64,000 bases of DNA from Streptomyces sp. NBC_00223. GTDB lineage: Bacteria > Actinomycetota > Actinomycetes > Streptomycetales > Streptomycetaceae. Numbering within the stretch: position 1 is the first letter of the stretch; every line of letters starts with the position of its first letter. The translations under genes were made by a program, and so were the position numbers. Positions 1-17,161 of the stretch are shown here, piece by piece. Where the stretch lies: NCBI RefSeq assembly GCF_036199905.1, contig NZ_CP108109.1, forward strand, positions 1 through 64,000, written 5' to 3'. Under the pieces are notes generated by a model that was not told the origin of the DNA, ran no database searches, and saw nothing but the letters and a program-made list of their open reading frames with translations.

Positions 1-357
1 GCCTTCGGCCCTGCGCGCGGGCTTCGCCCGCCGACTACCCGGCCTTCGGCCGGGGGCACCGCGGCGGCGCCGCGGTGCGTGGCCCGGCTGCGCCGGGCGT
101 GATCGGGCTGCGCCCGATCGGTGGGGGCGAGTGTGGGGTGTTCGGTAGATGGTGGCTCACTTCTCCTGCGGAGCAGGAGAAGTGAGCGTGAGTCGAGGAG
201 GTGTGGGCCTGCGGCCCTGACGGTGGGTTGGCTGGGGCCGGGCTTCGCCCGATGAGATGGCGGTGGGTGGGCGCTTCGCGATCTCGGGCGGGTGGTGCTG
301 GATGGTCCTGTCGCGAGTTCACTCGTTCGGGTGGCCCGGGGGCGGGCTTCGCCCGCC
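1..357. repeat. Telomere-like array of short palindromes at the left end
   Basis: At least eight GC-rich hairpins stand nearly head to tail. Stems (loops): 17-22/26-31 (TTC), 38-44/48-54 (TTC), 56-65/69-78 (GGC), 82-88/92-98 (TGC), 101-108/112-119 (TGC), 156-169/173-186 (GGA, 14-bp perfect stem), 205-209/213-217 (TGC), 239-243/247-251 (TTC) and 341-347/351-357 (TTC). The first bases (1-9) look like one more, cut short. Read on the minus strand, whose 3' end lies here, most loops are GAA or GCA. That is the hairpin type known from the 3' overhang of Streptomyces telomeres. The sequence is not the archetypal telomere as I know it. There is no convincing gene before 499. The nearby tap-tpg pair supports the call. 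Confidence 0.75.
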
Positions 358-498
358 CTCCTGATTCAAAGACGCAATCCCGCTAAACTCTGTGGTGTTA
401 GGGAGGCTCCGGGGAGGGCTCAAGATCGCGGACTCGATCAGTGTCGTGATCCACTTCCTGTCGTTCCTCGCTCGTTCCGGAAAGAGGAGGCATCCGTC

Positions 499-2964
499 AT
501 GGCGAGGAAGCTGCGGCCGAACCAGGAGGAGGCGTGCGGGGCATCGGTCCGGCTCCTGACGCTGCCCGCGTCGGGGGCGGTGCCGCCGGAGGGGCTTCGG
601 TGTCAGATCAGGGCCGCGACGGGGGCGGGCAAGTCGCTGACGGCTGTTCACGTCGCCTCCCGCCTCCACGCGGAGCGGGCACTGGTGCTGGTCCCCTCGT
701 TACCGCTGCTAGAGCAGTCGGTCGGGGTGTGGCAGCGGGAGAGGCGCGGCTGGCGGATGTTCGGGCTCTGCTCGTTGAGGGCCGGCGAGCAGCCGGGGAT
801 CAAGTGCACCACGGATCCTGCGGAGCTGGTGAAGTGGACCGCCGGGCCGGGGCTGGTGACGGTGTTCGCCACGTACGCGAGTGTGGGGCTGGGGCACCTG
901 GAGGGGGCCCACCGGGCCGGGTTGCCAGCGTGGTCGCTGGCGGTGGTGGACGAGGCGCACCGGGTGTCCGGGCAGGCAGGGCGGCCGTGGGCGGCGATCT
1001 TGGACAATGCCCGGATCCCGTGTGACCGGCGGTTGTTCATGACGGCGACGCCAAGGCTGTGGGCGGTGAAGGAGGACGATCGGGAGCGGGCCGCCGCGGT
1101 GGGGATCGAGGCGGCGGAGCTGATCGCAAGTATGGACGACGAGGCGCTGTTCGGGCCCGTCGCGCACGACTACCCGCTCGGGAGGGCGATCTCGGACGGG
1201 GTGATCGCCCCGTACCGCATCCTGTGCGTCGACGTCGCAGACCCAGTGCTGCAGGGCCTGGAGCAGCGCGGTGCGAGTGACCGGTCGGTGGAGTACCGGG
1301 GGGCTCGGCTGGCCGCGTTGCAGACGGCGCTGCTGACGGCGTGTACGGAGTGGGACCTGTCGCGGGTGCTGTCGTTCCACCACATGGTGGCGGAGGCGCG
1401 GGCGCTGAGCACCGGTCTGCGAGAGGTGGCGCGGGTGCTGTGGGAGCGGGATCCGGCGCTGCACCCGCGGCCGGAGCTGGTCGGCACGAGCTGGCTGGAG
1501 GCCGAGCACACCCCGGCGGAGCGACGGGCCGCGCTGGGCACGTTCTCCTCGCTGGTCGGCGAGGACGGGTGGCAGCTGCTGCGGTACATCCTGTCGTCGG
1601 TGAAAGTGCTCTCCGAGGGGGTGGACACCTTCGACTGCGACAGCGTGTTCTTCGCGGACGTGCGCGGGTCGATGGTCGACTTGGTCCAGGCCGTCGGGCG
1701 CGCTCTGCGGATGCACCCGGGCAGCGGGAAGGTAGCCACCATCGTAGTGCCCGTGCTGCTGGGGGCCGACGAGGACGGCGAGCAGCTGCTCACCTCGAAG
1801 GCGTACGACGGGCTAGCGAAGGTTCTGATGGCGCTGCGGTCGCACGACGCAGCCTCCGTCGAACGCCTGGCGCTGCCGCAGTCCGAGGCCCGGCCCCCGC
1901 AGGAGTCGCGGCACGCGGGGGCTCCGGAGGAGTTCAGCTCCGCCGGTGGCGAGGCGCAGCTGCTGCAGTTCTCCAGCCGACGCGACCCGGCGGTCATCGC
2001 GGCGTTCGTGCGGACCCGGGTGCTGGAGCCCGAGCGGGAGGAGTTCCGGCGCGGTCTGGAGGAGCTGCTCGCCTACCGGGAGAAGTTCGGCGACGTGAAG
2101 GTGCCCTACGCCTACCGGGCGACCTCGGGGCACCGGGTCGGGGCGTGGGTGGCCGACCAGCGCCGCTACAAGGCCGCCGGGGTCCTGGACGCCGAGCGAA
2201 TCGCCCTGCTGGACGAGCTCGGCATGGTCTGGTCCGCGTTCGATACCGCCTTCACCGACAACCTGACCGCGGTCGCCGGCTACGCCGCCGAGCACGGACA
2301 TGCTTGCCCGCCTGCCGACGCCGTGTGGGGCGGGCGCCCGGTCGGCGTCATCATGAAGAACCTGCGCACCGCCCAGCGCCGCACCGAGGCCCTGGAGCGC
2401 CGCGCCGCGGCCGGCGAACAGGGCCTGGACTGGACCGGGGCACTGGCCGCCGACCGCAAGGCCGCCTACGACGCCATCGACCCCGCCTGGTGCCCCACCG
2501 GATGGTCGGTGGACTGGCAGCGCAGCTTCACCCTCGCCTGGCGCCACGCGAAGGTCGGCGGGACCCTCGCCGGCACCGAGCCCGACGGCGTCGTCGTCCA
2601 GGGCGAGGACCTCGCCGGATGGGCCCGCACGCAGCAGATCGGCTGGGACAAGCTCGGCCCCGCCCAGCAGTGGGCCTTGGAGCACGTCCTCGGCCTGGCG
2701 CCGCTGACCGCCGAGCAGCGGCCGGCCCCAAAGGTGACCCACGCGGAGAAGGAGCAGCGGAACCTGGCGGCCGCCGCGCAGTACCGGGAGCGCGAAGGGC
2801 ACCTCACCGTCCCGCGCAAGCACAAGGAGCCGTTGGAGCTGGCCGACGGCACCACCATCGAGATCGGCCTCGGCATGTTCATCGCCAACAGCCGCAGCAG
2901 GCGCGCCGACATCCCGGCCGCCCGCGCCGAGCGCCTCGCCGAACTCGGCATGCGCTGGGAGTAG
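499..2964 (+). CDS. DEAD/DEAH-box helicase with C-terminal helicase-associated (HA) domains
   Basis: Superfamily 2 helicase, 821 aa. Walker A is AATGAGKS (residues 39-46), motif II is DEAH (151-154), motif III is TAT (182-184). A helicase-C core follows with the VQAVGRALR motif. Past residue about 510 there are HA-type repeats, each ending in a LDELGM or LAELGM turn, a family usually taken to bind nucleic acid. I chose ATG 499 because AGAGGAGG (483-490) is an excellent ribosome binding site 8 bases upstream. The open frame reaches back to 292, but that stretch overlaps the palindromes and is not protein-like. Helicase-like genes commonly sit just inside Streptomyces telomeres, and the position here matches. 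Its role in end replication is inference. Confidence 0.9.
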   Translation: MARKLRPNQEEACGASVRLLTLPASGAVPPEGLRCQIRAATGAGKSLTAVHVASRLHAERALVLVPSLPLLEQSVGVWQRERRGWRMFGLCSLRAGEQPGIKCTTDPAELVKWTAGPGLVTVFATYASVGLGHLEGAHRAGLPAWSLAVVDEAHRVSGQAGRPWAAILDNARIPCDRRLFMTATPRLWAVKEDDRERAAAVGIEAAELIASMDDEALFGPVAHDYPLGRAISDGVIAPYRILCVDVADPVLQGLEQRGASDRSVEYRGARLAALQTALLTACTEWDLSRVLSFHHMVAEARALSTGLREVARVLWERDPALHPRPELVGTSWLEAEHTPAERRAALGTFSSLVGEDGWQLLRYILSSVKVLSEGVDTFDCDSVFFADVRGSMVDLVQAVGRALRMHPGSGKVATIVVPVLLGADEDGEQLLTSKAYDGLAKVLMALRSHDAASVERLALPQSEARPPQESRHAGAPEEFSSAGGEAQLLQFSSRRDPAVIAAFVRTRVLEPEREEFRRGLEELLAYREKFGDVKVPYAYRATSGHRVGAWVADQRRYKAAGVLDAERIALLDELGMVWSAFDTAFTDNLTAVAGYAAEHGHACPPADAVWGGRPVGVIMKNLRTAQRRTEALERRAAAGEQGLDWTGALAADRKAAYDAIDPAWCPTGWSVDWQRSFTLAWRHAKVGGTLAGTEPDGVVVQGEDLAGWARTQQIGWDKLGPAQQWALEHVLGLAPLTAEQRPAPKVTHAEKEQRNLAAAAQYREREGHLTVPRKHKEPLELADGTTIEIGLGMFIANSRSRRADIPAARAERLAELGMRWE

Positions 2965-3194
2965 GCGTGTGCCGGAGACGGGCCGGTGGCGGGTACCGAT
3001 CTGTCGCGCCCCAACAACGCGCAGGGTGGGCGAGCACGGTCTCGTTGGCCGCCATCGCGTGCGCCGGAGCGCCCGTACCCCGCGTTGTGGAGCCGTGTCG
3101 GAGCGAGGCAGGCCGAGGACGTGCCCGGCCGTAGTGCACGGGTCGTCTCACCACGTTGCGCACAACGGAGTCGGCCGGTCGAGCTGAGGGGGGT

Positions 3195-3492
3195 TAGACT
3201 GGCAGGTGCCGGTGCGTCGAGTGTCGGCCGCGTACCGCTCCGGTTATACGGAACTGCACCTCGCAGGGTTGGACCTGCGAGGTGAAGAGCGGCTAGCGCC
3301 TTCGGGACCGACCAGTGGCTCGCCTAGTTTCGTGGAACGCCGGTCGGCATGGTGACGTACCGGACCGTGAGCCGGTGGGGAGCTGTGACGACGCCCGCCG
3401 CCCTTTGGACGGCGCGCAGTGGAGTCTCTGGCCCGATGCCGGGGATGGCAGGTTCAGCCTGCGGCGCGCCAGTCCCCAAAGGGCGTTTTTTC
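3195..3492 (+). promoter_or_regulatory. Structured leader RNA that can sequester the ribosome binding site of the next gene
   Basis: A possible -10 box (TAGACT, 3195-3200; the -35 is poor) precedes a leader of about 285 bases. It contains a perfect 10-bp hairpin (3258-3267/3274-3283). A long-range helix follows: CCCTTTGG (3401-3408) pairs with CCAAAGGG (3476-3483), and GGCGCGC (3411-3417) with GCGCGCC (3464-3470). Two small hairpins lie inside (CCCG/CGGG near 3433 and GCAGG/CCTGC near 3450-3463). The helix is followed by CG and six T (3486-3491), then the ATG at 3493. The only ribosome-binding-like bases, AAAGGG, are in the outer strand of the helix. The element could therefore act as a translational switch, a terminator/attenuator, or both. 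I cannot assign a known riboswitch class. Confidence 0.5.
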
Positions 3493-5610
3493 ATGAGTAT
3501 CGACGCGTTCGAGAACGACAGTCTTCCCCCGCTGCTGCGGCGCCCCGACGAGGTGCCGGACCCGGCGCCGGTCACGCAGTTGCGCGGCTTCCGCAAGACC
3601 CTGCTCGACAACCCGGTGAACTCGCTGGACGAGGACGCGGCCACCGTGGTCACCGGCGGTGCCGTGGACCCCGTGCTGCTGCGCAAGCTGGTCGAGGCGG
3701 CCGGGGAGACCGCCGACGCCGGCCTGCTGATGGCCAAGCCGGTCGTCGGCGGCACCCTGTACGCCATCCCGCCGCACCGGCGGTTCACCGACCTGGACGT
3801 ACTGCCCGACTTCCTCAACCAGCGGTGGGTGCACAAGCTGCACACCGCGATGGACGACAAGCAGGAGAACAACGCCCCGGTCGTCTACAGGACCTTCATC
3901 GACGAGGCGACCGGGCAGCCGAGGGCGCTGTTCGTAGTGCGGGTGGCGGACCGTCAGGCCCTGGCCGACGCGGTCACCGAGAGCATGCGCCAGACGTACG
4001 GGGCCCAGGGCCAGCGAAACGTCTACACCGAGAGCGTGCTGCAGCACGGCATCAAGGAGCCGATGACGCTGTTCCTGGTCCGGGTCGTCTACGACGACGG
4101 CGTCGAGGAGACCTACACCGTCGCTGGCGACGGCAACAGCCGGCTCGTCAGCATGTGGCTGGCGCGCACTGGCGGCAACATCGACGAGGCGGCGGCGGCG
4201 TGCGTCGCCGCCGTGATCGGCCCGGTGGACCGCTCCGGCCCGCGCCGGCCGGCCGACCAGCGCTCGGCCCGCGCAAAGGTGACCGAGATGGCCGCCCGCG
4301 TACGCCGCGGCCTGGCCGAGAAGGTCCTCACCGAGGCGACCCGCCGCGAGGGCCACACCCTGACCTTCCCGGCCATCGTGGTGGTCGGCGCCGTCACGGA
4401 GGACGGCACCCCGCTGCCCGACCTGGTCGCCGCCCGCGACGACCTGGTGGCCAACCTGCACGTCCACGTCACCCCGTGGGACGAAGGCGCGCAGTACACC
4501 CAGGGCATGCAGCGCGTCTACCGGCACGCCCTGCGCGAGCACTTGGTCGACGCCGACACGTACAAGGTGCTGCTCGGCGAGGTCAGCCCGGCCACGATGC
4601 ACAAGCTCCTCGGCCTGCCGCCGCACCGCCTGTGGTCGGTGGCCCTGCACCAGCAGGGCATGCTCGCCGGTCAGGCTGAGAGGATGAACCGGCTCCTCAA
4701 GCAGGAGTTCGGCATCGGCAGGGCCGACCGCCAGAAGGTGAGCGAGCGGATCGCGTCGATGGCGCTGTCCGCCTACCGCAGCTCCCCGGCCATCGACCAG
4801 TACGCCCGCGCCCTCGGCAACGGCGGCACCATCACCGACACGGTGTGGAAGCGGAACTGGACGCTGACCCGCGGCACCGACGCCCTGAAGGTCCTCGACG
4901 GCATCCTCGAGCGGGCGCTGCTGGACGAGACCAACGCGGTGGCCGAGCTGACCGTGCTCGGCGGCACCGCCGCGATCGTCTCCGGCTTCATCACCCGTGA
5001 CCGCGGCTCCAAGCTCGCCGCGGCCCGTGAGGTGCGCACCGCGCCGCTGCGGCACACCCCCAACGCCCTGCTGGCGTTGCTGGCCGGCACCCAGGGCGGG
5101 CTGCGGATGCTCCACTCCATCGCCTACGCGCACGTCGCGGCCGACCCCAGCATCCTGCCCAAGCAGTTCCACACCGCCGCGCGGGAGATCGACGGTGCGG
5201 TGATGCGGGATGGCGAGCCGGTCGTCGACAAGGCCGGCGCGGTGGTCTCCATCGACTACGAGTGGGACCTGGTCTACGCCGCCAGCCCGGTGGAGGCCGA
5301 GGCGTCGATCGCCGAGCTCAAGAAGAAGCTCGACGGCAAGACCGGGAGCGGCAGCACTACGGAGACCGAGGACGCACGGCAGCGCCGGATCCTGCAGAAC
5401 TCGATCAAGGCCGCCAGCCGGGCCGCGTTCACGCTCGCCAAGATGACCCAGACCCACGCCCGTGGCCGTGAGGTGTTCGGCCTCGTCACCAGTGTGGACG
5501 CCCTGCGGGTTCAGTTGGGCAGCATCACCGAGACTCTCATCAAGTTCGGCCCCGTGGCCAACGTGATGCCGGACCCGGAGGACGAGTACGAGGACGGTGA
5601 CGGCGCGTGA
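3493..5610 (+). CDS. Large protein with a ParB/Srx-like domain, function unknown
   Basis: 705 aa from ATG 3493; the open frame begins at 3349 but that part is the structured leader. Residues 179-217 follow the ParB N-terminal pattern: an ES-x-x-x-HGI-x-x-P segment (180-190), then a Y-x-V-x-G strand and DGNSR (213-217), where ParB has GERR and DndB-type proteins have DGQHR. The rest is mostly helical, with a charged C-terminal tail (EDEYEDGD). I recognise no catalytic motif with confidence. The gene lies between the terminal helicase and tap-tpg, and its stop overlaps the GTG of the next gene (GTGA at 5607-5610). A DNA-binding, partition-like or defence role are all possible; none is shown. 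Confidence 0.75.
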   Translation: MSIDAFENDSLPPLLRRPDEVPDPAPVTQLRGFRKTLLDNPVNSLDEDAATVVTGGAVDPVLLRKLVEAAGETADAGLLMAKPVVGGTLYAIPPHRRFTDLDVLPDFLNQRWVHKLHTAMDDKQENNAPVVYRTFIDEATGQPRALFVVRVADRQALADAVTESMRQTYGAQGQRNVYTESVLQHGIKEPMTLFLVRVVYDDGVEETYTVAGDGNSRLVSMWLARTGGNIDEAAAACVAAVIGPVDRSGPRRPADQRSARAKVTEMAARVRRGLAEKVLTEATRREGHTLTFPAIVVVGAVTEDGTPLPDLVAARDDLVANLHVHVTPWDEGAQYTQGMQRVYRHALREHLVDADTYKVLLGEVSPATMHKLLGLPPHRLWSVALHQQGMLAGQAERMNRLLKQEFGIGRADRQKVSERIASMALSAYRSSPAIDQYARALGNGGTITDTVWKRNWTLTRGTDALKVLDGILERALLDETNAVAELTVLGGTAAIVSGFITRDRGSKLAAAREVRTAPLRHTPNALLALLAGTQGGLRMLHSIAYAHVAADPSILPKQFHTAAREIDGAVMRDGEPVVDKAGAVVSIDYEWDLVYAASPVEAEASIAELKKKLDGKTGSGSTTETEDARQRRILQNSIKAASRAAFTLAKMTQTHARGREVFGLVTSVDALRVQLGSITETLIKFGPVANVMPDPEDEYEDGDGA

Positions 5611-6095
5611 CCTCGGTAACGATCCCCCGTCAGATCCGTCGGCGGCTCGCCCCCGCCGTCCGCACCCTGGCGCCGCTCCTGGACACCGGTGCCCTCGCCC
5701 GCGCCGACGACCCGGCCTCCGGCCTTGGCCTGCCGGGCGACCGTCGAGGCCGCCCGGAGCGAGATCACCGTGCCGCGCGCGGTGTACGTGGCCTGGGATG
5801 CCCGGGGCTGGTGCCGCTACATCGGCAGCGTGAACCGCCGACAAGCAACCGCGGTCGGCGACCGGCTCGCCGAACACCACCAGCACCCGCGGCACGGGCC
5901 GGCCCGCCGCCGCGACTGGGTGCTGCTGACCGTCCTGCCGATCCGGGCGGACGCGCCGCACGGGGCCGTCCTCGCCGCCGAGGGATGGGCGGCGCGACTG
6001 CTCGTCTCGCTCGACGGCGGCGCGCACCCGGTGATCGATCTGATGCTCCCGCCCGACGCGATAGCCGCGCGATCCCCACCCCGCACGGCCCCTGA
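5607..6095 (+). pseudogene. GIY-YIG-like protein gene with an internal frameshift
   Basis: GTG 5607 overlaps the upstream stop, suggesting coupled translation. The first 40 or so codons have good GC3. Coding signal then moves to the +1 frame near 5710-5750. From about 5722 to 6070 that frame reads like a GIY-YIG domain: AVYVAWDARG, then CRYIGSV, RLAEHH with the usual R and H, and AAEGWAARL with a candidate catalytic Glu. The shifted frame has possible starts at ATG 5689 and GTG 5770 and stays open to 6543, but composition stops looking coding near 6070-6130. Either the gene is broken, there is a one-base sequence error, or the short start at 5770 is used. The nuclease assignment is motif-based and tentative. 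Confidence 0.45.
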
Positions 6096-6131
6096 GCCTG
6101 GTACCGGGCGCGGGCGGGTGGGTGGTCGTGA

Positions 6132-6428
6132 CTACGACCACCCACCCGTCGGCTCTCCGGTCAGCCGCCCGACGGCGAGGCGTAGCGGGGTGAGGCATCG
6201 GCCGGGTGCTCGGAGACCAGCAGTTCCTCGCTGCTCGGCGCGCAGGATGCCGTCCCGGGCCCAGCGGCAGGGTTGCTGCGGCAGGACGGCGGCGAGACGG
6301 CCCCCGGGGTCAGCCGGTACGGCAACGAGTGCGACCACCCGCCGCGGGACGCCGCTGTTCGCCAGGACGACGGGTGAGGTGGCGCCGGCGGCGCGGAGTT
6401 CGTGGTCCCACAGGGCTCTCACCGCCAA
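6132..6428 (-). CDS. Small protein of unknown function downstream of tpg
   Basis: 98 aa from TTG 6428 (or GTG 6422). The protein-like core is a hydrophobic segment rich in Val and Ala (VVALVAVPADPGG) followed by an Arg-rich half. It follows tpg on the same strand by 38 bases and could be the last gene of the tap-tpg operon. No family is recognised and the ribosome binding site is weak. It converges on the GIY-YIG-like gene. Confidence 0.35.
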   Translation of the reverse strand: MAVRALWDHELRAAGATSPVVLANSGVPRRVVALVAVPADPGGRLAAVLPQQPCRWARDGILRAEQRGTAGLRAPGRCLTPLRLAVGRLTGEPTGGWS

Positions 6429-6466
6429 TCAGGCTTTCCTGCAAGGAGGCTGTGTGCTGATCCGGG

Positions 6467-7015
6467 TCAGGTCAGGTCGAAGTCGTTGGGGTCGAAGTCG
6501 AAGTCGTCCGGGCCGAAGCCGCCGTAGCCGGGGCCGCCGTTGAAGTATTCCGCGAGGGCCTGGCCGACGATCTGTCGCACCTCGCCCTCGTTCTCGGCGA
6601 GGGCCAGGGCGGCGGCCTGCTCGCCCGTCAGGTTCAGGTGGATGTCGCGGGCGCGGACCGCGTCCGAGCCGCGGATCTCGAAGGTCATGGTGCGGCCGAC
6701 CCGGGCCCCGATCCCGGAGACGGTGCCGCGCTGGGCCAGTTGCTTGGCCTTGCGCTCCCGGCCGCGCTCGGTGGTCTGCACGTCGACCGCCTCGCGCTGC
6801 AGTCGCTCGGCGGCTTCTCCCTTGGGGTGGCGGGTGCCGTCGATCCAGCGGAGCACGGTGCGCGGGGCGACGCCGTAGGCGGCGGCCATGGCCTTGGTGT
6901 TCCCGCTATACTTGCGCTCCCGCACCTGGCCGGCCTGCGTGGTGGACTGCACCGGCGCCTTCCTGGAGGGGAACAGCGCCTCGCGCACCCGGCCGAACAG
7001 CCCCTTGGCCGCCAT
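6467..7015 (-). CDS. tpg: Telomere terminal protein Tpg
   Basis: 182 aa, the usual length of Streptomyces Tpg (about 184-185 aa). Tpg becomes covalently attached to the 5' ends of linear replicons, primes end patching and protects the ends. Features seen: a basic N-terminus, a helix-turn-helix-like segment (YGVAPRTVLRWIDG, about residues 47-60), a charged ERGRERKAKQL stretch, a GARVGRTMTFEI segment, and a tail with a QALAEYF motif and a repeated Asp-Phe acidic end. The start ATG shares one base with the tap stop (TGATG at 7013-7017), so the two genes are translationally coupled. Assignment rests on length, motif order and the tap neighbour. The sequence looks divergent from the archetypal protein. 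Confidence 0.85.
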   Translation of the reverse strand: MAAKGLFGRVREALFPSRKAPVQSTTQAGQVRERKYSGNTKAMAAAYGVAPRTVLRWIDGTRHPKGEAAERLQREAVDVQTTERGRERKAKQLAQRGTVSGIGARVGRTMTFEIRGSDAVRARDIHLNLTGEQAAALALAENEGEVRQIVGQALAEYFNGGPGYGGFGPDDFDFDPNDFDLT

Positions 7016-9483
7016 CAGTTGCCGCCTTCCTCGTCGTCGTTGTCGGTCTGCTCCGGGGCGATCGGGGTGCCGTCAGTGGTGTAGTGGTGGACCAGCTTGG
7101 AGGGGTGCTCCCGGCGCTCCATCGCCTCGACCACGGCCTCCAGGGGGATCGAGGCTTCGTGCTTGTGGCTGCCCGGGGCGATGCCCAGGCGCAGTGCGCC
7201 GGGGACCGGGGTGCCGTCGTCCTTGACCGGGAGCAGCTCCAGCGGGGACGGGGCGGCGGCGGCGTACAGGTAGCTGTCCACGTTGACCGCGAAGGGGGCC
7301 CGGCCGGTGAGCAGCAGGGTCTTGCGCAGGCGGCGGTGGGCGGCGATGCGGGCGGCGGCGATGACCTGGAAGCGCAGCGCGGGGTCGTAGGACCAGGAGG
7401 CGGCGACCTTCTCCAGCCACACCTGGTCGTCCAGGTGGCGGGCGGAGTCGGCCCACTTGCCGATCCCGCCCTTGTAGACGTTCTTGTAGGTCTCCGCGAG
7501 GACCAGGGCGTCCGCGCGGACCGGGTCGGTGCCGACGTCCCTGTGGACGGCGTAGGCGGCCAGGAACTCCTCCGGGCTCTGGCCGTCGAACAGACCCAGC
7601 TCGGCGTAGGTCCGCTTGTAGCCGCCCCTGATCCGGCCGGTCCACTCTTTGAGCAGCGGTGCGGTGTGGGCGGCCAGGTAGGCGGCGGTGATGGTGGCCT
7701 GGTCGAAGCCGTAGGTGGTGGCCATGTAGGCGACCGTGACGGTGGCGTACCAGCCGGGCCCGGTCGGCGGCTGGCCGTGGAAGGTGGCCGGGTGCGGCAG
7801 CAGGGAGTCAACCTCGGTGCCGGTGAAGTCGCACCACCACAGGCCGGCGGTCTTGCCGTCCCAGGCCGGGTGCTCCACGTACGCGTACGGGCCGATGGGC
7901 AGGCGCAGGGAGTCGGTGACGGACAGGTAGCTCGCGCACACGTCGACTGCGACCGCGAACTGGCGGCCGGCCTCCTCGGTGGTGAGTTCGCGGGCCCACC
8001 ACTTGTAGTCCTCCTCTTCGCACACCGTCTCTCCCTTGGAGAGGAGTTCGCGGGTGAGCGGGTGGCGGGCCCCGGCGGCCGGCGGCACGCACAGGTCTCC
8101 CGAGGGCAGTGCGCCCTCGCGCATGTACGAGGACCACTCCCCCATCGCCTGGTCCTTGGTCCACTCCACGCGGGGGCGCACCGCGTCCAGGAGCAACATC
8201 GCGGTCGAGGCCGTGGTCGCGCCGGGGGCGACGCCGAGGTCGGTGGTGAAGGCCCGGTAGCGGCGAGCCAGGACAAGCCCGTCCCGGGTGCCGTCGGGGG
8301 CGGTGGCCAGCGGGGCGGCGAGGGAGCTGACGGCCTGCTGGCGGCCGTCGCCCTGGCCCAGCCACGGCGCGATGGTGACCCGCACCGAGGTCTTCGGGCC
8401 GCCGGCCGACCCGGCACGGCGGAAGGCGTGGAAGGACGGGCCGATCGCCTCGGAGATCTCCATGCCCACCGTGGCGGCGGCCTTGGCCAGCTTGGCCTGG
8501 AGCGCGGCCAGGGCCTTCTCCGTGCCGGGCAGCATGGCGGGCAGGCCGAGCTGCTTGAGCGCGGCGGCGGTCAGACAGACCATGCCGTCGCCACCGCGTC
8601 CGGCCGGGTGGGCGCGCTCGACGCGCAGCGGCAGCCCCGTTCCCAGCCACGCGAACCAGTCGCCCAGCTTCGGCCCGGCCGGAGCCGGGATCTGCGGGAC
8701 GTCCAGCACCCAGCCGCCGCCCTCGGCGACGTCCAGCGCGACCGCCGACCACCAGCGCGCAGCGGCAGCCGTGGCGGCCGGACGCGGCGCAGCCGGACGG
8801 GTAGCGGGACGGGACGTCGCCGGGCGCGGCCTGGCCGACGGGGCCGGGGAAGCGGTGGGCGCGGGCCGCACCGGCGACGAGGAAACAGGAGCAGGAGCAG
8901 CGGGCGCGGCCGGGGCGGCGACGGGCGCCAGGGCCACCGGGGCGGGCAGAGCCTGGCCCGCCGGAGCCGGGGCCGGCTGCTGGGCGGCCGGTGCGGCGGC
9001 CTGGGGCGCCTGGGCGGCGGGGCGGCAGAACCCGCCCAGGTGCATCGGGCGGCCCTGCGCGCGATAGACGGAGGGCTGGCAGCACTGCACGCACGGCGCC
9101 GACTCGCCCATCACCAGCGAGCCGTCCGGGTTCTGGTCGAGCAGCGGAACCACTAGGCCGTCACCCGTGTCCTGGGCGGGCGCCGGGGCGGTGAACGCCT
9201 GCGGCACGACCGAGACCGGAGCGGTGGGCTGTTCAGGCGCAGGGAAGCGCTCCGCCAGGCCCGCGAGCAGCCGCGCGTAGGCCGGGGCGATGTCCGGGCC
9301 CGGAACGGCTGATCCGTCCTCCCAGCCCAACACCAGGGCCGAGTCCACCCGCAGAACCGCGGCGATCTGCGTAGGCGTCAGCCCAGCCGCCAGGCGCAGC
9401 CGCTGCCGCTCCGCCGGAAGCGGCAGGCCGGTGTTCACGGCCGCCAGCAGAGCGTCGACGGAGTTGAACAGGTCATCCGACAT
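7015..9483 (-). CDS. tap: Telomere-associated protein Tap
   Basis: 822 aa, longer than the roughly 740 aa of known Tap. Tap binds single-stranded telomere hairpins and recruits Tpg. The start ATG 9483 gives the family's N-terminus: residues 20-80 form an XRE-like helix-turn-helix (AAGLTPTQIAAVLRVD, then LGWEDG). Residues 131-153 hold Cys residues (CVQCC, then C) that could bind zinc. An Ala-Pro linker of about 90 residues accounts for the extra length. A large globular C-terminal half follows, with DEEDYKWW-type and KRTYAELGLFDGQ segments. Fourteen bases separate it from the upstream gene, and it overlaps tpg. The longer open frame to 10623 is not supported. Confidence 0.85.
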   Translation of the reverse strand: MSDDLFNSVDALLAAVNTGLPLPAERQRLRLAAGLTPTQIAAVLRVDSALVLGWEDGSAVPGPDIAPAYARLLAGLAERFPAPEQPTAPVSVVPQAFTAPAPAQDTGDGLVVPLLDQNPDGSLVMGESAPCVQCCQPSVYRAQGRPMHLGGFCRPAAQAPQAAAPAAQQPAPAPAGQALPAPVALAPVAAPAAPAAPAPVSSSPVRPAPTASPAPSARPRPATSRPATRPAAPRPAATAAAARWWSAVALDVAEGGGWVLDVPQIPAPAGPKLGDWFAWLGTGLPLRVERAHPAGRGGDGMVCLTAAALKQLGLPAMLPGTEKALAALQAKLAKAAATVGMEISEAIGPSFHAFRRAGSAGGPKTSVRVTIAPWLGQGDGRQQAVSSLAAPLATAPDGTRDGLVLARRYRAFTTDLGVAPGATTASTAMLLLDAVRPRVEWTKDQAMGEWSSYMREGALPSGDLCVPPAAGARHPLTRELLSKGETVCEEEDYKWWARELTTEEAGRQFAVAVDVCASYLSVTDSLRLPIGPYAYVEHPAWDGKTAGLWWCDFTGTEVDSLLPHPATFHGQPPTGPGWYATVTVAYMATTYGFDQATITAAYLAAHTAPLLKEWTGRIRGGYKRTYAELGLFDGQSPEEFLAAYAVHRDVGTDPVRADALVLAETYKNVYKGGIGKWADSARHLDDQVWLEKVAASWSYDPALRFQVIAAARIAAHRRLRKTLLLTGRAPFAVNVDSYLYAAAAPSPLELLPVKDDGTPVPGALRLGIAPGSHKHEASIPLEAVVEAMERREHPSKLVHHYTTDGTPIAPEQTDNDDEEGGN

Positions 9484-9497
9484 CAGGGCCGGTCTCC

Positions 9498-10133
9498 TCA
9501 GCGTCCGTTGGGTCGGGTCGGGTCGATCCGCGGGTCGCCGAACAGGGCGTCGAAGACCCGCTCGGTGAGGCAGGCGATCGGGCCCTGCTCGGGGCGCAGC
9601 GTGTAGCCGGCGGTGCGCCCGAGATCGGCCACCGCGATCGGGACCTGGCGGCGGTAGTAGAACTCGAGCTCGCGGCCGGCGAACTCCGTGGGCTCGACCA
9701 CGCCCTGCGCGGGGTTGAACGGCAGGGTGAACGAGGGCAGGCCGGCCACGTCCTCCTCGGCGGCCAGGTGCAGCACGCCGTCGTCGGTGGTGCGGAACGC
9801 CACGGCCAGGTCCACGCCGCCGGCTCGGCGGTCGCGCGGGAGCCCGTGGCCCTCCAGGACACGGCCCAGCTGCGAGGGAGCCATGGCGGCCGCGATGCCC
9901 AGGGCGCGCCGGTTGGAGTAGCTGTCGCTGGCGTCCGCGCGGGACATGGCCAGCTCCTTGACCACGTTCAGGTGCTGGGTGACGCGGCTGATGCAGGCGA
10001 CCAGGGCGGTCAGGTCGTCGAAGGCGGAGGCCTGCGGCGGCTCGACCAGCCGCTCGCCGCGCAGGGCCGCGAGCAGCGCCTGGGCGAGGTCGTCGTGCAC
10101 CTCGACCCGCTCGCCGCCGATGCTGATTCTCAC
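9498..10133 (-). CDS. First gene of the tap-tpg operon, function unknown
   Basis: 211 aa from GTG 10133, with GGGAG about 8-12 bases upstream and a good promoter beyond. The N-terminal 100 residues are probably helical and charged. A SNRRALGIAAAMAPSQLGRVL segment could be a helix-turn-helix-like unit. The C-terminal half reads as beta-rich (VLHLAAEEDVAGLPSFTLPF, then ELEFYYRRQVP). No known family is recognised. It sits 14 bases before tap, so it is almost certainly co-transcribed with the telomere genes and may assist end maintenance. That role is inferred from position only. Confidence 0.7.
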   Translation of the reverse strand: MRISIGGERVEVHDDLAQALLAALRGERLVEPPQASAFDDLTALVACISRVTQHLNVVKELAMSRADASDSYSNRRALGIAAAMAPSQLGRVLEGHGLPRDRRAGGVDLAVAFRTTDDGVLHLAAEEDVAGLPSFTLPFNPAQGVVEPTEFAGRELEFYYRRQVPIAVADLGRTAGYTLRPEQGPIACLTERVFDALFGDPRIDPTRPNGR

Positions 10134-10165
10134 GAGACAACTCCCAAAAAGTAGAATTTAACCAA

Positions 10166-10194
10166 ATACTACGCCCGTCTGCTCTTGGAGTCAA
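10166..10194 (-). promoter_or_regulatory. Sigma-70-type promoter of the tap-tpg operon
   Basis: On the minus strand TTGACT (10194-10189) and TAGTAT (10171-10166) are separated by exactly 17 bases, close to the consensus for the principal sigma factor. It lies in the only AT-rich patch of the region, 33 bases before GTG 10133. Confidence 0.75.
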
Positions 10195-10489
10195 AGAGGA
10201 AAGGGCGCGCGGCACTGCTGTGCGCCGGTGCAACTGGCCAGGGGTCGGGGAGGGCAGGCGCGGCCGCCTCCGGCCAACGCGACGCGGGTGCACGCCACTC
10301 TGGCCTGACCGGGGGCTGGGAAGACGGTGCCAACCGGGCAGGGCAGCGGCGTAGGGTGTTCGCCACCACGGCGAGTTGGCCACCCGCCGGGGCGACCACA
10401 CCGTCGAGTCGCTGGCCGGCAAGGCCGCGCCCGACCGCTTCGTGGTCCTGCTCTTCTCCGCTCCCCTGTTCCCAGCGAGTGAGGCACCT

Positions 10490-11712
10490 TTGTCCAGCGG
10501 GCTTGTCCGCGCCACCTCGCCCAACCAACCGCCCAGCGCCCTGCCGAACGAGCTCGCCGACGAGCAGCTCACGCTGCTGCTGGAGATCGCCACGCCCTTC
10601 GTGCAGACCTGGGTCTGGCCCATCTGGGACTACGTGGTCAAGCGGATGGACGAGCGCGGGCTCGATGCCCGCAAGATCATGGCGTCCCTGCCCCGCGTCG
10701 GAAGCACCGGAACGCTCGGGCCGTCCTACGGCTTCACCGCCAAACACGACTGGCGCATGATCGGCGACGGCGACCCGGTCAGGCTCACGGTCGCGGCCGC
10801 CCTGCCGCTCGGCGAGCTGCGCCCTCTCCTCGCAGACCCGTTCCTGCGGGTGCTTCACCACATGATCGCCCTGCAACGAGCCGCAGTACCGTCGCCGACC
10901 GAGGTCACGCAGACCTGGCTGAACTCACCGGAGCTGGCCGAGGCCATCCCCAGCCTCAAGCCCGAGTTCATCGCCGCGCTCCCGCAGATCCTCGACGATG
11001 AGCCCAGCACCTGGGGGGGAAGCGGACGGGGCCCGAACCTGCCCGACGACCGGCGTGGGCCAAGGAGATCAAGCGCGAGATCCAGGAGTACGCGCAGGCG
11101 ACCGACGTGGAGGCATACGTCGCCACCGTCTGCCGGATCGTCACCGAACAGATGTGGGAGCAGAACTACCACCATTACCGCGCCGAGCAGGGTGTGCCGC
11201 TGCCCCGCGAGTATGCCGCGGCGCCCCGGCCCGGCCAGGCCGGGGAGGAAGCGGCGGAGCCCCCCGCCGCGCCGGAGACCTCCGGGTCGGTCTACGTCAA
11301 GGAGGCGCTGATCGAGGAGCTGGTCGAGCTCGACGGCGCCGGCCGCTTCTTCACCGACAAGCTGGTCCGGCAGTGCAGGGAGCTGAACTTCAACTACCAG
11401 CACGAGCAACCGTTCTCGTGTCACGCACTGCTGCGCGCCATCATCGACCACGTTCCGCCGGTCTTCGGCGTGGCCGGGTTCGCCCAGGTCGCCAGCAACG
11501 TCACGGGGCGGACCAAGACCGACAAGGACTACCTCAAGAAGCTCCAGGACTTCCGTACCCAGGGCGACGACGTGCTGCACCGGCAGATCGGCCCCCAGCG
11601 CAGCCGCATCGACATGCACGACGTCCCCGCCCCGGCAGCCCTGAACGCCCTGCTTGAAGGCCTCCTCAAGCACCTCCGGCAGGCCCGGGCCGCGGCCGCG
11701 GCCGGGAAGTAG
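10490..11712 (+). pseudogene. Unknown-family gene split by a frameshift in a G run
   Basis: The first part (TTG 10490, or TTG 10376) reads in frame to about 11018. Good coding sequence then continues two frames away (AWAKEIKREIQEYAQA onward) to the stop at 11712. The break coincides with six G at 11013-11018. A seventh G would restore one protein of about 408 aa. The C-terminal part has a helical ALLRAIIDHVPPVFG segment, then TKTDKDYLKKLQDFRTQG and DDVLHRQI, a layout reminiscent of helical domains in defence-type proteins, though I cannot name the family. It may be a pseudogene, a phase-variable gene or a sequencing error. It diverges from the tap operon. Confidence 0.6.
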
Positions 11713-11777
11713 CGCGCCGACCTGCCGGGCCTCGGACGGGCGGCCGGGCTGTGTACGGGCCCGGCCTCCCGGAGGCT

Positions 11778-12431
11778 TCACCGTGCGGCGCCCGTACCGT
11801 GGGGGTGCTCGTGCCGGGCGGTGCGGAGCAGGCGCAGCCACGCGCCCTGGTGAAGGCGCTCGGCGGGTCCAACGAGCATGGCGGGCCACGGGCACGGCCG
11901 GGATCCGGCGGGGGCCGGTACCCATAGACGCGGCCCGCATGCAGTCGCTGCGGGCGGTGCTGTCGGGCCTGGGCGGCGATGGCGGGCAGGTCCAGCGGAA
12001 CGGGCAGGGCGCGAGCTCGGCCCAGACGACCTTGCCGGTGCCGGTCGGGTGCTCCCCCGCTCTTCGGCCAGGGCCTCGACCATCAGCAGGCCGCGGCCGG
12101 TGACGGCCTGGTCGTCGCCGATGCCGGCCACGATCCGGGGCAGGGCGGCGCCCTGGTCCTCGACCTCGAACCGCACCCGGGCGCCGGCCGCGTCCAGGCG
12201 CAGCAGCGCGGTGAGCCGGGCCGGGCCCGCGTAGCGGGCGGCGTTGGCGAGCAGTACGGAGGCGACGGTCACCAGGTCGTCCAGTGCGGCGCCGTCCAGG
12301 CCCCAGCCGGTGGCGGCGCAGTGGACCAACCTGCGGGCGGGGCCGACGCAGGCCACGCGCCGGTGCGGGTCGGAGGCGGTCGCGGTGAGGGTCAGGCGGT
12401 ACAGCGGCCCGCGCCGAAGACGGTGCGGCAT
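11778..12431 (-). pseudogene. Frameshifted HATPase-type (anti-sigma-factor-like) gene
   Basis: From ATG 12431 the frame gives an RsbW-like ATPase fold of the kind common in Streptomyces. An N-box region (DLVTVASVLLANAARY) is followed by FEVEDQGAALPRIV and a G-box (GRGLLMVEALAEERG). Near 12065 the protein jumps to another frame (EHPTGTGKVVWAEL). Near 12015 it jumps again, to a frame with the normal C-terminus (LPVPLDLPAIAAQ). Two indels in 60 bases mean no complete protein is made from this sequence as given. The ends are approximate. Confidence 0.6.
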
Positions 12432-12635
12432 CGGGGCCCTCAGGGGTGGTGACGGCACGTCGGTCGGGTGGGCCACCGGTTCGGAGGCGACCGGCGGCGG
12501 CCCGCATCCGACCCAGCCGACCCGCGCCACAGGCGCAGTTCCAGTCCACCGCCCGCAGCCACGGGAGCGGTGCCACCCCGACCGCACGTTTCACCGGCCA
12601 CTTCAGCCCGGCCGCCCGCCCGGTGGCGCCAGGGT

Positions 12636-13310
12636 GTGACGACTCCTCAGACCGAGGAGAGCAGGCGGTGGGCACCAGCACGCCAGCCGGGTTGGGCAAA
12701 GCGGCCGGCTGCACCCAGGAGACCCTCGTCGTCGCGTTCGCCGCGCTGGCCACCGGCTCGGCATCCAGGCCGCGGTGAGCGTGCGTCAGCTGCGCCGCTG
12801 GGAGGCGCCCGACCCACCGCTGCCGCACCCAGGCCAGCAGGAGGTACTGGAGGCGCCGCTCGGGGTGCCGCTGGAGGAGCTCGGCTTCCAGATGCCCGCC
12901 GAGCGGCGCAGCACGCACCGGCCGGGCCGGCAGGTCGGCGCGGCGGACGTCGTGCTGCTGCACGCCGAAGTGGCCGGGCTGTACGCCATCGACCACACCG
13001 CCGGCGGGCGGGCCGCGCGCACCGCCCGCCCGCCGGGTCCTCGGCGAGCTGGAGCGGGCACTGACCAGCGGCAGCTACCTGGAGCGGGGGCCGGGCCCGC
13101 ACCGCGTGCTCGGAGGCGCTGGCCACCGCCCGCCTGGTCGGCGACCCGCTGCTGGAGATCCGCGCACTCGACAGCCTCTCCCTCCTCGCGGTCGGGCAGA
13201 AGCGCCCGTGGGAGACGGTCGCCGCGGCCAGCACGGTCGGCGCCCTCGCCCAGTCCCACGGCAGCCTCAAGGTGAAGTCCGTCGTCGCGCTGCGCCACAC
13301 CCCGCCCTGG
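12636..13310 (+). pseudogene. Broken XRE-type regulator remnant
   Basis: The pieces match the Streptomyces regulator family with an N-terminal XRE helix-turn-helix and a long repeat-rich C-terminus. Seen in order: an N-terminal MTTPQTEE-like start at GTG 12636, KAAGCTQETLVVAFAALA, SVRQLRRWEAPDPPLPHPGQ, EAPLGVPLEELGFQ, LGELERAL, then VGDPLLEIRALDSLSLLAVG and STVGALAQSHGSLK. The pieces lie in at least four reading-frame blocks (shifts near 12670, 12775, 13035 and 13130). The family sequence stops near 13310, well short of normal length. Its 3' end runs antisense into the open frame of the next gene. It is a decayed, truncated gene. Confidence 0.6.
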
Positions 13311-16300
13311 TCCCCCGAGCCTCACGTACACGAGCGGGTGCAGGTCTGTCCGTCTCAGGGTCTGGTATTCGGCGAGGGTGAGGCGGCAGGTGCTGGGCGG
13401 GGTGGTGCCGGGCCAGTCCGGTGAGTCGATGCCTCGGGCGCGGGCGGCCTGCCACATGGTGGGGACCAGGGCGTGGGTGTGGGCGGGGGTGGCCATCTGT
13501 TCGCACATCCACAGCAGTCGGCCGGCCCCACGGGAAGGACCGAGGGTGCGCCAGCGGATGCGCTGGGCGAGGTCGGCGGCGGTGATGGCGATCCAGGGGT
13601 GGACGGTGGCGAGGGGGCCTTGGGCGCCGAGCCAGGCGAGGTAGCGCTGTGCGTCGTCGAGGACGGGGGCCATGGAGTCCGCCGGGATGCCGCGGATGTA
13701 TGCGGGCCGGCCGCGGAAGGCGCGGGGTGCGCGGGCGACGAGGAGCAGGACGGCGCGGGCGAGGTCGCCGGCGACCGGCTGCCAGTCCTCCTCCTCGTCC
13801 TGGTCCGCGTCTGTGGTGGCCTGGCCGGGTTGGCCGAGGGTGCGCAGGACGTTGTAGAGCTCGGCTTTGGCGCGGTCGGTGAACGGCGCTTGTTCGAGCG
13901 CGGGCAGGCGGGTGGCGAGGGTGGCGATGAGGGCGTCTTCCGCGGTGTCCGGGTTGTCGGGGACGGGGAGGTGGGCGGTGGCGTCGGCGAGGGTGGAGGC
14001 GAGGTCGGCGTCGACCATGAAGCGGCTGGTGAGGCGGCCGAGTTCGGTGGCTTCGATGCGGTCGTCGCCGCCGTCGGGGTCGGGGGTGCGGGTGAGGTAG
14101 GCGGTGTCGGTGAGGAAGTCGGTGGCGTCGTGGAGGGGGTCGAGGGGGTGGTGGCCTTGGTGGAAGGCGAGGGTGCTCTTCCACCAGTTCTCGGCCTGGG
14201 TGGTGGTGGCGAGGCGGTTCTGGACGGCTTCGGCGAGGAGGTGGTCGGGCAGGCGGTCGCGGATGCGGGAGGTGACGGTGTATCCGGCGGCGAGGCGTGC
14301 CTGCCAGTGGTGGCGTTCGCTGGGGGCGGTGAGCAGGTAGGCGTGGCCTTCGCGTTCGCCGGCGCCGATGCGGCCTGCACGGCCGAACATCTGCTGGACC
14401 ATGGACACTTCGATACGGCTCATGCCGATCTGGGTGTCGCGGACGATGACGGCACGGGCGGGCAGGTTGACGCCGGCGGCCACGGTGGAGGTGGCGACGA
14501 GGATGTCGGCCTGACGGGTACGGAAGGCCTGTTCGGCTTCGCGCTTGTGAGGCCAGTCGCGGTAGTGCAGGCGCACGCCGGCCTTGGTGCACAGGCGCTC
14601 CACGAGATCGCTGTCGTCCGCGTCGGCGCCGGTGGTGTCGACGCCGCGGTCATGGGCCAGGGCGAGGGCAGTGGTACGGACCGAGCGTTTGCTGCCGCAG
14701 AACACCAGGACACTGCCGCCGCCGGCGGTGTGGTGGCGCGCGAGGTCGACGGTGCGGCGGGTGCGGGTGTTGTTGCGGGTCGCCCAGTCGGCTGCGTCGG
14801 CGTCCGGTGGCATGGCCGGCAGCTGCCAGGTCAGGCGGGTCGGGCGCCAGGGCGAGCGGATGAGACGGGCGCCGAGCCATCCGGCGAGTTGGTCGGCGTT
14901 GGCGACGGTCGCGGACAGGCCCACGATCCGTACCCGGGTGGCGTCCTCGCGGACCCGGGCCAGGAGCGCCTCCAGGACCGGGCCCCGGACGGGGTCGCCG
15001 AGCAGGTGGATCTCGTCCACGACCAGGCAGCCGACTTCGGCGAGCGCGGCGCGTAGGGAGCCGGCGCGGCAGATCGCCTCGAACTTCTCGGTGGTGGCGA
15101 CCCACAGATCGGCTTCGCGGATGAGGTCGGTGTCGACGGCGGCTTCGCCGGTCAGGCGGACCACCCGCAGCCCGGCGCGGCGCCAGGCGGCGAGGTCGCG
15201 GTCGAGTTCGTCGGTGAGGGAGCGCTGGGGAACGAGCCAGGCGGCTTTGCGGCCGCGTTGGTGAGCGGTGAGGGCGGCGACCATGCCGATCGCGGTCTTC
15301 CCGGCTCCGGTCGGGGCAACGACCATGGCGTGCTCGTCGCCGTCGGTGACGGCGGGGATGGCGGCGGCCTGGACCGGGTTGAACGCCGGGTGCGGCAGCA
15401 GCGCCTTCCACACCTCGGGGACGAGGTCCTCGACGGGCACGAACGCCTCGGTGTCGCCGGCGGGGAGCTCGTCCAGGGCGTCCCACTGGGCGGCGAACGC
15501 GTCCCGGGCCGCGTATGCGGCGGGCCCTGCGGCCGGCGTCGCCACGCCGCCGGGCCAGGCGGCCAGCTCGACGGGCGCGCCGAGGTCGGACACCGTGGTG
15601 ACCACCTCGTCCTCCACCCAGTGCGCGGCGGTGCGCACCTGGGCGCCGAGACCAGCGAGAGCGTCGCGCAGGGTGTCGAAGCGCTCCCCCGCCGGGATGA
15701 TGACCCTCAGGTCGGTGGCGGCGCGCAGTGCGGGCTCGGGCACGTTCCAGGCGGGGTCGGTGATCTTGCCCCACCACAGAGCCCGCGTCTCCTTCTGGGC
15801 CGGCAGGGGCAGGTCTTCGGGCCACGCCGGGCCCACGGGGGCGGTGGTGGGTGCGGGTTCGCGGGAGGGGTGGGGCAGGCGGATCGCCGTGACGCTCACG
15901 CCGGGCCCGCTCGGACACGGGCCCGTGTCGGGTCCGGCCACCAGCCGTGCCGCGGCGCGGGCGGTCACCGCAGGAGCGGCCTTTGTACGCTGCGGTCCGG
16001 GGGCGGCGGCCGCCGCAGGCGTGGCCGGGGTAGTGGGGCGCAGGAGCCTGTCGTAGGTCTTCACGCCGAGGTCGGCGAGCGTGAACGCAGCCGGGCAGGC
16101 GGGGCAGACGACGGCGACGTACCGGTACTTGCGCCCTGCGGACTCGTACGGGCGGCGAAGCGAGTGCAGTACGCCGTCGCACTGCGGGCACGGGCGGGGC
16201 ACCTGCTCCTGGTAGGTCCAGCCCGGCTCGGTGAACCGCTGCTGCAGCCCTGCGGCCGGCAGGTCGCTCCCCCACCTGTCACGGACGAGCTGCTCGACCG

Positions 16301-16343
16301 TCAGATCGCTGGCCTCGGTGTCTGTTTCGTGCACGGTGCTCAC
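12786..16343 (-). CDS. Ski2/Hel308-like DEIH-box helicase with N-terminal zinc ribbon
   Basis: Start GTG 16343 (GTG 16334 also possible); the frame upstream to 16562 is Pro/Gly-rich and unlikely. Residues 52-83 contain CPQC and CPAC, a zinc ribbon. After a Pro-Ala linker come a Q-like motif (FNPVQAAAIP, 321-330), Walker A (APTGAGKT, 343-350), motif II DEIH (443-446), SAT (477-479), motif IV (VLVFCGSKRS), VATSTVAAGVNLPA, and motif VI QMFGRAGRIG. This layout is that of Ski2-type RNA/DNA helicases. Homologous sequence ends about 13310 (LHPLVYVR). The frame then runs another 170 codons antisense to the broken regulator, so the true C-terminus has been lost or replaced. No target can be named. Confidence 0.8.
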   Translation of the reverse strand: MSTVHETDTEASDLTVEQLVRDRWGSDLPAAGLQQRFTEPGWTYQEQVPRPCPQCDGVLHSLRRPYESAGRKYRYVAVVCPACPAAFTLADLGVKTYDRLLRPTTPATPAAAAAPGPQRTKAAPAVTARAAARLVAGPDTGPCPSGPGVSVTAIRLPHPSREPAPTTAPVGPAWPEDLPLPAQKETRALWWGKITDPAWNVPEPALRAATDLRVIIPAGERFDTLRDALAGLGAQVRTAAHWVEDEVVTTVSDLGAPVELAAWPGGVATPAAGPAAYAARDAFAAQWDALDELPAGDTEAFVPVEDLVPEVWKALLPHPAFNPVQAAAIPAVTDGDEHAMVVAPTGAGKTAIGMVAALTAHQRGRKAAWLVPQRSLTDELDRDLAAWRRAGLRVVRLTGEAAVDTDLIREADLWVATTEKFEAICRAGSLRAALAEVGCLVVDEIHLLGDPVRGPVLEALLARVREDATRVRIVGLSATVANADQLAGWLGARLIRSPWRPTRLTWQLPAMPPDADAADWATRNNTRTRRTVDLARHHTAGGGSVLVFCGSKRSVRTTALALAHDRGVDTTGADADDSDLVERLCTKAGVRLHYRDWPHKREAEQAFRTRQADILVATSTVAAGVNLPARAVIVRDTQIGMSRIEVSMVQQMFGRAGRIGAGEREGHAYLLTAPSERHHWQARLAAGYTVTSRIRDRLPDHLLAEAVQNRLATTTQAENWWKSTLAFHQGHHPLDPLHDATDFLTDTAYLTRTPDPDGGDDRIEATELGRLTSRFMVDADLASTLADATAHLPVPDNPDTAEDALIATLATRLPALEQAPFTDRAKAELYNVLRTLGQPGQATTDADQDEEEDWQPVAGDLARAVLLLVARAPRAFRGRPAYIRGIPADSMAPVLDDAQRYLAWLGAQGPLATVHPWIAITAADLAQRIRWRTLGPSRGAGRLLWMCEQMATPAHTHALVPTMWQAARARGIDSPDWPGTTPPSTCRLTLAEYQTLRRTDLHPLVYVRLGGPGRGVAQRDDGLHLEAAVGLGEGADRAGRGDRLPRALLPDREEGEAVECADLQQRVADQAGGGQRLRARGAGPAPAPGSCRWSVPAPARRGPGGRAVRAARPPAVWSMAYSPATSACSSTTSAAPTCRPGRCVLRRSAGIWKPSSSSGTPSGASSTSCWPGCGSGGSGASQRRS

Positions 16344-16663
16344 TGTGGCAGCCGGGTAGCCGCCCGTACCAGAGGCACTCGGACAGTGTCGCGGCCCCGT
16401 GCCGGTGGCGCCGTCAGCGGCAGGGGCCGAACCTTCGTGCTCAGCGCCGATTTGGCCGCCTTCGCTGCCGGGCGGGATGCGGCCGGCGCGATTCAAGGCC
16501 GTGGTGCTCTCCCGCTGGTGTTCCGGCGGGCCGCCGAGGGCCTGGGAGCCCTTGTTGTTCACCGGTGTGAGAGTTGGAACCGCACTGGGGTTGAGATCGC
16601 GGACGCGGCCCGCTCAACGTGGCGCGGAAAAGTACTGCTGGGCTACGTCACGGCTGGGGTTGC

Positions 16664-17161
16664 TCAGTGGAACAGTGCTTCGACCAGGGCTGCGCGGAAC
16701 CGGCGCTGCCGGACTCCAGTGGCGATGGCCTGCGTGGTCGGATCCCCTGTCAGGCCGATACACATGACGACGGCTCCGGTTTTCTCGAGCATGTGCCACA
16801 TGTCGTCGGTGAGGCGGACGGGCACTGCGATGCGGACGATCTCCGGGTCGGTGCTGTGCTTCGACTCGTCGTAGAAGCCTTCGAAGGTACGGTTGGCCGA
16901 GTTGAAGACGGCCTTCCAGCCGTGGTCCTGGGCGAGTACAGCGGGCGCGTCCCACACGGGCCAGCCGAAGTGGTCCTGCACAGCGGTGGTCGTTGCGGAT
17001 GTGTGCCCGGACAGCACCAGGGTGACGGTGCGCACCTGATTTCCCGTGATGACGGTTGTCCTGCCTTGGGCTCGGGCGCTCACCGCGCCGGGCGCTGACA
17101 GGCCGATGTGCGTGACCGCCATGTTGAGCTGAGCCCACAAGTCCCGGGGACGTTCTGCCAT
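16664..17161 (-). CDS. Hypothetical protein, 165 aa
   Basis: Start ATG 17161 (MAERPRDLWAQLNMAV); the frame is open to 17212 but the extra N-terminus is Pro-rich. It is a soluble alpha/beta protein with normal GC3. Notable segments are LVLSGHTSATTTAVQDHFGWP and EIVRIAVPVRLTDDMWHMLE. No family is recognised. It follows a 320-base stretch (16344-16663) between it and the helicase in which I see no gene or clear signal. Confidence 0.6.
   Translation of the reverse strand: MAERPRDLWAQLNMAVTHIGLSAPGAVSARAQGRTTVITGNQVRTVTLVLSGHTSATTTAVQDHFGWPVWDAPAVLAQDHGWKAVFNSANRTFEGFYDESKHSTDPEIVRIAVPVRLTDDMWHMLEKTGAVVMCIGLTGDPTTQAIATGVRQRRFRAALVEALFH

Follow-up and report, generated by a model that had tools for sequence, protein, structure and literature searches.

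The window analysed here, a stretch of 64,000 nucleotides, comprises bases 1-64,000 at the left end of a one-contig genome of 7,961,474 bp. It opens with a dense array of palindromes, which is followed by a short conserved block. The elements of this outermost region are listed below; only the block has a strand assigned.

1-358: palindrome array of the telomere, with the minus strand as the expected 3' overhang
1-9: GCC TTC GGC, left over from a truncated outer hairpin; relatives have GCGCCTTCGGCGC here
17-31: hairpin, 6-bp stem, loop TTC; TCT in the right-end copy
38-54: hairpin, 7-bp stem, loop TTC; kept in relatives
56-78: hairpin, 10-bp stem, loop GGC; TGC in the right-end copy
82-98: hairpin, 7-bp stem, loop TGC; one compensatory C-G/G-C change relative to relatives
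101-119: hairpin, 8-bp stem, loop TGC; almost invariant among relatives
155-187: long hairpin, 15-bp stem, loop GGA; relatives have another long palindrome, AACTCCGC-GCTTCGCT-GCGGAGTT
205-217: hairpin, 5-bp stem, loop TGC
239-251: hairpin, 5-bp stem, loop TTC
340-358: hairpin, 8-bp stem, loop TTC, the innermost of the array
364-392, plus strand: conserved subtelomeric block, TCAAAGAC...CCCGCTAAACTCTG, between the array and the helicase gene, found in an alignment of ten ends; a possible promoter

The array contains nine perfect non-overlapping triloop hairpins (stem of at least 5 bp, 3-nt loop), while 1000 dinucleotide-preserving shuffles of it gave a mean of 0.65 and a maximum of 4; the nine or more palindromes that the original prediction had placed in the first 360 bases are thus borne out. 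Seven of the hairpins have stems of at least 6 bp, compared with a maximum of three among the other 360-bp slices of the window. The loops on the 3'-ending (minus) strand are mostly GAA or GCA, in agreement with the predicted prevalence of TTC and TGC on the plus strand, and the minus strand folds mainly as separate hairpins (-105 kcal/mol, DNA parameters), a fold that the original prediction had proposed as a check. Two hairpins had been singled out as breaking the pattern. The longer one, described as a 14-bp hairpin at 156-186, has a 15-bp stem at 155-187, and it is not an exception, because in relatives this position is likewise occupied by a long palindrome, though of another sequence. 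The GGC loop of the hairpin at 56-78 does deviate at the left end but not at the right end, where the loop is TGC. In a covariation test of two hairpins among close relatives only one compensatory pair was found, which is not above shuffled alignments (74 of 500 shuffles). Support for the hairpins comes from their persistence in relatives while the sequences differ, and not from base-level covariation. The array is partly tandem-duplicated in genome G105 (L136:480-1223), in plasmid 1 of Kitasatospora NBC_01302 (L042:1-602) and in K. aureofaciens CPD02 (L058:1-700); the outermost palindrome of the latter is in inverted orientation, TTACCCGGCGTAGCCGGGTAA.

The window and the single contig share their first base, and an inverted copy of the array lies at the other end of the replicon (7,961,086-7,961,474), two points that the original prediction had marked for checking. 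Both copies belong to a terminal inverted repeat (TIR).

12-17663, no strand assigned: TIR, 17,652 bp, 3 mismatches relative to the right end

All three mismatches fall in hairpin loops, at window positions 24-25 (TTC on the left, TCT on the right) and 66 (GGC on the left, TGC on the right). The terminal bases of assemblies are error-prone, and the outermost bases differ between the two ends in several related plasmid records too, so that an end-of-contig consensus error is a likelier cause of these mismatches than a real difference; the GGC loop at the left end may be such an error. The inner border of the TIR, at 17,663, lies beside an IS element (integrase-core ORF at 18092-19057, region 17592-19092), and the right end (near 7,943,822) diverges at the same base into another insertion-like sequence. 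The border may therefore have been set by IS activity.

The array had been predicted to be cut inside its first palindrome, and comparison with relatives agrees with this. The linear contig C2 of the Kitasatospora genome G194, a complete relative, starts with CCCGGCTACGCCGGGTAACCACGGGCCTTCGGCCCGGGTTGCTTGCGCCTTCGGCGC; its opposite end is the same but one base shorter, and the start CCCGGCTACGCCGGGTAACCAC is common to the two ends bar that base. Since the window aligns from position 47 of the G194 contig, about 46 outermost bases are absent from the assembly, and positions 1-9 are what is left of an outer hairpin. At the right end, 11 further bases are absent.

The following genes of the TIR are relevant to the function of the end.

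499-2964, plus strand: terminal helicase gene, 821 aa, with DEAD/ResIII and helicase-associated HA domains; TtrA-like by position
6467-7015, minus strand: tpg', gene of a divergent terminal protein of 182 aa, with Ser117 as candidate priming residue
7015-9483, minus strand: tap', gene of a divergent telomere-associated protein of 822 aa; 299 bits against NCBIfam telomere_Tap (cutoff 600)
9498-10133, minus strand: conserved hypothetical gene, 211 aa, upstream of tap'

The helicase shares up to 85% identity with proteins encoded next to the same telomere in Kitasatospora and relatives. The order of tpg', tap' and the 211-aa gene is that of plasmid 2 of Kitasatospora NBC_01302, whose Tpg' protein is 87% identical to that of the window; each TIR carries tap' and tpg' in intact form. 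Tpg' matches the Tpg family NF047541 at 42.4 bits (E 2.9e-10), below the curated cutoff of 90 bits, and Tap' matches the Tap family NF047542 at 298.8 bits plus a 76-bit N-terminal piece, below the curated cutoff of 600 bits. Judged by its sequence, Tpg' is a homologue of the Tpg family that lies outside the equivalog. The same chromosome carries an intact canonical tap-tpg pair about 224 kb from the left end (G000:C1:223705-226425), far above both cutoffs (Tpg 298.5 bits, Tap 1114 bits); Tpg' and Tap' are 31% and 33% identical to these canonical proteins, respectively.

Features common to Tpg' and Tpg are a Thr or Ser at the T114 position, a helix-turn-helix motif, a length of about 185 aa (182 here) and a tap gene directly upstream. 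In S. lividans Tpg, experiments identified T114 as the priming residue, and a T114S variant is functional (PMC3572947). The residue of Tpg' aligned with T114 is Ser117; this position is Ser in nearly all aligned members and Thr in one. For the C-terminal domain of Tap', an AlphaFold2 prediction from a four-sequence alignment gave an unusable model (pLDDT 33), and a sequence search for a solved relative found none. A plus-strand tap/tpg candidate at 3349-6095 was rejected, as the ORF at 5607 has the appearance of GC-rich noise and the protein starting at 3349 matches no telomere family. The latter protein (753 aa, 3349-5610, plus strand, within the TIR) shares 60% identity with a protein encoded near the end of a Kutzneria buriramensis plasmid of 38 kb (NZ_CP130631.1) and is possibly end-associated.

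The telomere class, with the end sequence CCCGGCTACGCCGGGTAACCACGGGCC..., was found in 13 of 395 Streptomycetaceae genomes, nearly always at a contig end; the occurrence at many internal loci that would have spoken against a telomere was not seen. The same class is present at the ends of plasmids of Kitasatospora NBC_01302 and of the Streptomyces strains NBC_01601, NBC_01304, NBC_00637, NBC_00239 and S. halstedii NBC 00641, and on contigs of many Kitasatospora genomes. By genus grouping, Kitasatospora corresponds to g14, and the window's genome belongs to genus g1, which is neither Streptomyces nor Kitasatospora. One other g1 genome (G020) has the window's telomere class; other complete g1 genomes have different ends, which are archetypal-like (G026, G030) or of the CTTG-loop type (G025, G027).

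The occurrence of Tpg' follows that of the telomere class. It is encoded in all 13 genomes with the class and in 17 of the 382 others (30 genomes in all; Fisher test, 1.6e-16, a figure that overstates the significance because related genomes are not phylogenetically independent), as well as in seven of seven plasmid records with the class telomere. Canonical-type Tpg is encoded in 394 plasmid records, mostly without this class. The 17 genomes and three plasmid records that encode Tpg' with no detected class telomere represent draft ends, divergent ends or hybrid replicons; NBC_00039 and MMBL 11-1, for example, encode Tpg' and have ends that are not recognisable as the class. The Kitasatospora drafts G396, G397, G398, G401 and G403 have the class, and their only matches in the Tpg family search (E 1e-5) are Tpg' proteins below the cutoff. 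The plasmid of S. globisporus NBC_01078 (NZ_CP108665.1; L079, L080), with a diverged class end on the left, an archetypal end on the right and both types of Tpg, looks like a hybrid. In genome G090, two inverted Tpg' copies face each other in mid-contig (C1, 4.68-4.81 Mb), as they would if assembly had joined and rotated a linear chromosome; the midpoint was rejected as a telomere junction, as there is no array within 4.725-4.765 Mb.

The element is a Streptomyces-type telomere, with tightly packed palindromes inverted at both replicon ends and short purine-rich loops on the 3' strand. A list published in 2021 has six telomere classes (PMC8743542); additional variants were described in 2020 (PMC7205883). 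In tests against these, the window's class is not of the archetypal, Sg2247 or CTTG-loop type; from SCP1 it is set apart by published features only. Like the archetypal telomere (S. coelicolor, S. lividans, SAP1), it has palindromes in a row, their 3-nt loops being mainly GCA on the 3' strand, together with the tap-tpg gene order, and its complete relatives start with CCCG...GGGTA(A)CCAC, similar to Palindrome I followed by TACCAC. It differs from the archetypal telomere in lacking blastn similarity to the SAP1 end over the array and in its Tap' and Tpg', which, at 33% and 31% identity to the canonical proteins, are under the family cutoffs. The stretch that would hold Palindrome I is missing from the window; relatives have CCCGGCTACGCCGGG there, compared with the 13-nt CCCGCGGAGCGGG of the archetypal class. 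A search for the archetypal telomere elsewhere in the window's genome gave short chance-like matches only. The non-archetypal character proposed in the original prediction thus agrees with the comparisons.

The type I CTTG-loop telomeres and that of pS1D4-20.1 (PMC7205883) similarly combine a variant telomere with a variant tap-tpg pair, and replacement was proposed for them. The type I ends have loops of CTTG, and their Tpg shares 48% identity with the archetypal protein (PMC7205883), whereas the window has GAA/GCA loops and 31% identity. The pS1D4-20.1 telomere has GCA loops too (PMC7205883), a likeness by description and not by sequence. The CTTG-loop ends of the g1 members G025 and G027 (L149, L151) resemble the type I ends of Streptomyces populations (PMC7205883). 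The Sg2247 type (S. rimosus, pSGZL, pSCAT) shares the array of 3-nt-loop hairpins at replicon ends, but no sequence similarity to the pSGZL or pSCAT ends was found; genomes with the Sg2247 class were reported to have no Tap/Tpg similarity (PMC8743542). SCP1 has a protein-capped end with its own two-gene pair, Tac and Tpc, much as is proposed here. By its published traits it differs in a G-run start and 4-nt loops, compared with the 3-nt loops and the CCCGG start of complete relatives here (PMC4513846, PMC7205883), and Tpc has no homology to Tpg (PMC4513846, PMC7205883, PMC3572947).

The TIR segments at 6.5-10.2 kb and 13.4-17.6 kb match Kitasatospora at 82-95%, and this similarity stops at about 17.59 kb, beside the TIR border (17,663). 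In the Tpg' tree the window's protein falls inside the Kitasatospora group, with weak local support, and apart from the two other g1 carriers of Tpg'. The presence of a TIR that is in large part Kitasatospora-like in a host of another genus suggests that a transferable end cassette replaced the telomere, a process proposed for Streptomyces populations (PMC7205883). Probably the telomere, the terminal helicase and tap'-tpg' came as a unit from Kitasatospora and replaced earlier ends. On the simplest reading, a Kitasatospora-type replicon end would have replaced one chromosome end and would then have been copied to the other.

Taken together, bases 1-358 are very probably the near-complete left telomere of a linear Streptomycetaceae chromosome, served by its own tap'-tpg' pair, and the cassette is probably of Kitasatospora origin. 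In the known system, Tap binds palindromes II and III; on the 3' overhang, it and Tpg synthesise a primer of 13 nt, which a polymerase later extends (PMC4513846). By analogy with the Streptomyces system, replication would leave the minus strand as a 3' overhang, which could fold into a row of GAA/GCA triloop hairpins. Tap' could bind the outer hairpins and position Tpg', which would act as a protein primer: the hydroxyl of Ser117 would accept the first dCMP and a short primer would be made, after which DNA polymerase would patch the gap, leaving Tpg' on the 5' end. The homology, the gene order, the triloops and the Ser/Thr residue suggest that Tap' and Tpg' act here like Tap and Tpg; it is by this analogy that we infer covalent capping, the priming residue and the acting pair. 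The class would work with its own tap'-tpg' pair, 6.5-9.5 kb from the end in each TIR, in place of the canonical Tap and Tpg or alongside them.

Three other explanations were considered. An internal palindrome cluster or a pseudo-telomere at which the assembly chanced to break is barely credible: pseudo-telomeres are possible in Streptomyces chromosomes (PMC8743542), but the array is inverted at both ends of one contig and in relatives lies almost always at contig ends. The telomere could also be real and served by the canonical Tap and Tpg, with Tap' and Tpg' as passengers travelling with plasmid ends. The canonical pair of this genome, intact and far above the cutoffs, might do the capping, and lone or extra tpg copies are common, some of them pseudogenes (PMC3572947). 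However, Tpg' strictly tracks the telomere class across the 395 genomes and the plasmids, while the 394 plasmid records with canonical Tpg mostly lack the class; several class drafts have Tpg' only, and both genes are intact in the two TIRs. We regard the passenger explanation as quite improbable.

Alternatively, the class may be known already, as the telomere of pRL1, pRL2 or S. griseus 13350 or a variant of one of these. The plasmid pRL2 was reported to encode Tap-like and Tpg-like proteins (PMC8743542), and 3-nt loops also occur in griseus telomeres (PMC7205883). On the other hand, pRL1, pRL2 and Sg13350 were each the sole member of their class in NCBI in 2020 (PMC8743542), and the griseus GtpA was reported to be only 18% identical to Tpg (PMC7205883), compared with 31% between Tpg' and canonical Tpg. 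Identity with one of these classes seems unlikely, in a comparison that drew on published descriptions of pRL1, pRL2, Sg13350 and pS1D4-20.1. A broader proposal has, in our judgement, an even chance of being correct: Tap' and Tpg' with the array would constitute an undescribed class with its own recognition system, separate from canonical Tap and Tpg, and a cassette of telomere, helicase and tap'-tpg' would move between genera on linear plasmids and replace chromosome ends, the canonical tap-tpg pair being a relic or a parallel system.

The six known telomere classes sufficed to close just 20 of 223 complete streptomycete genomes; ends of a novel kind are probably frequent, and most classes have no known capping system (PMC8743542). 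Chromosomal telomeres of recognised classes were reported for two genera only, Streptomyces and Kitasatospora (PMC8743542), and the window's genome lies outside both. In it, a non-archetypal class is accompanied by candidates for both the capping pair and the priming residue; relatives supply a complete terminal sequence, and the host has two tap-tpg systems. This combination makes telomere specificity and replacement directly testable. The sequence of the class can be used to close other actinomycete genomes.
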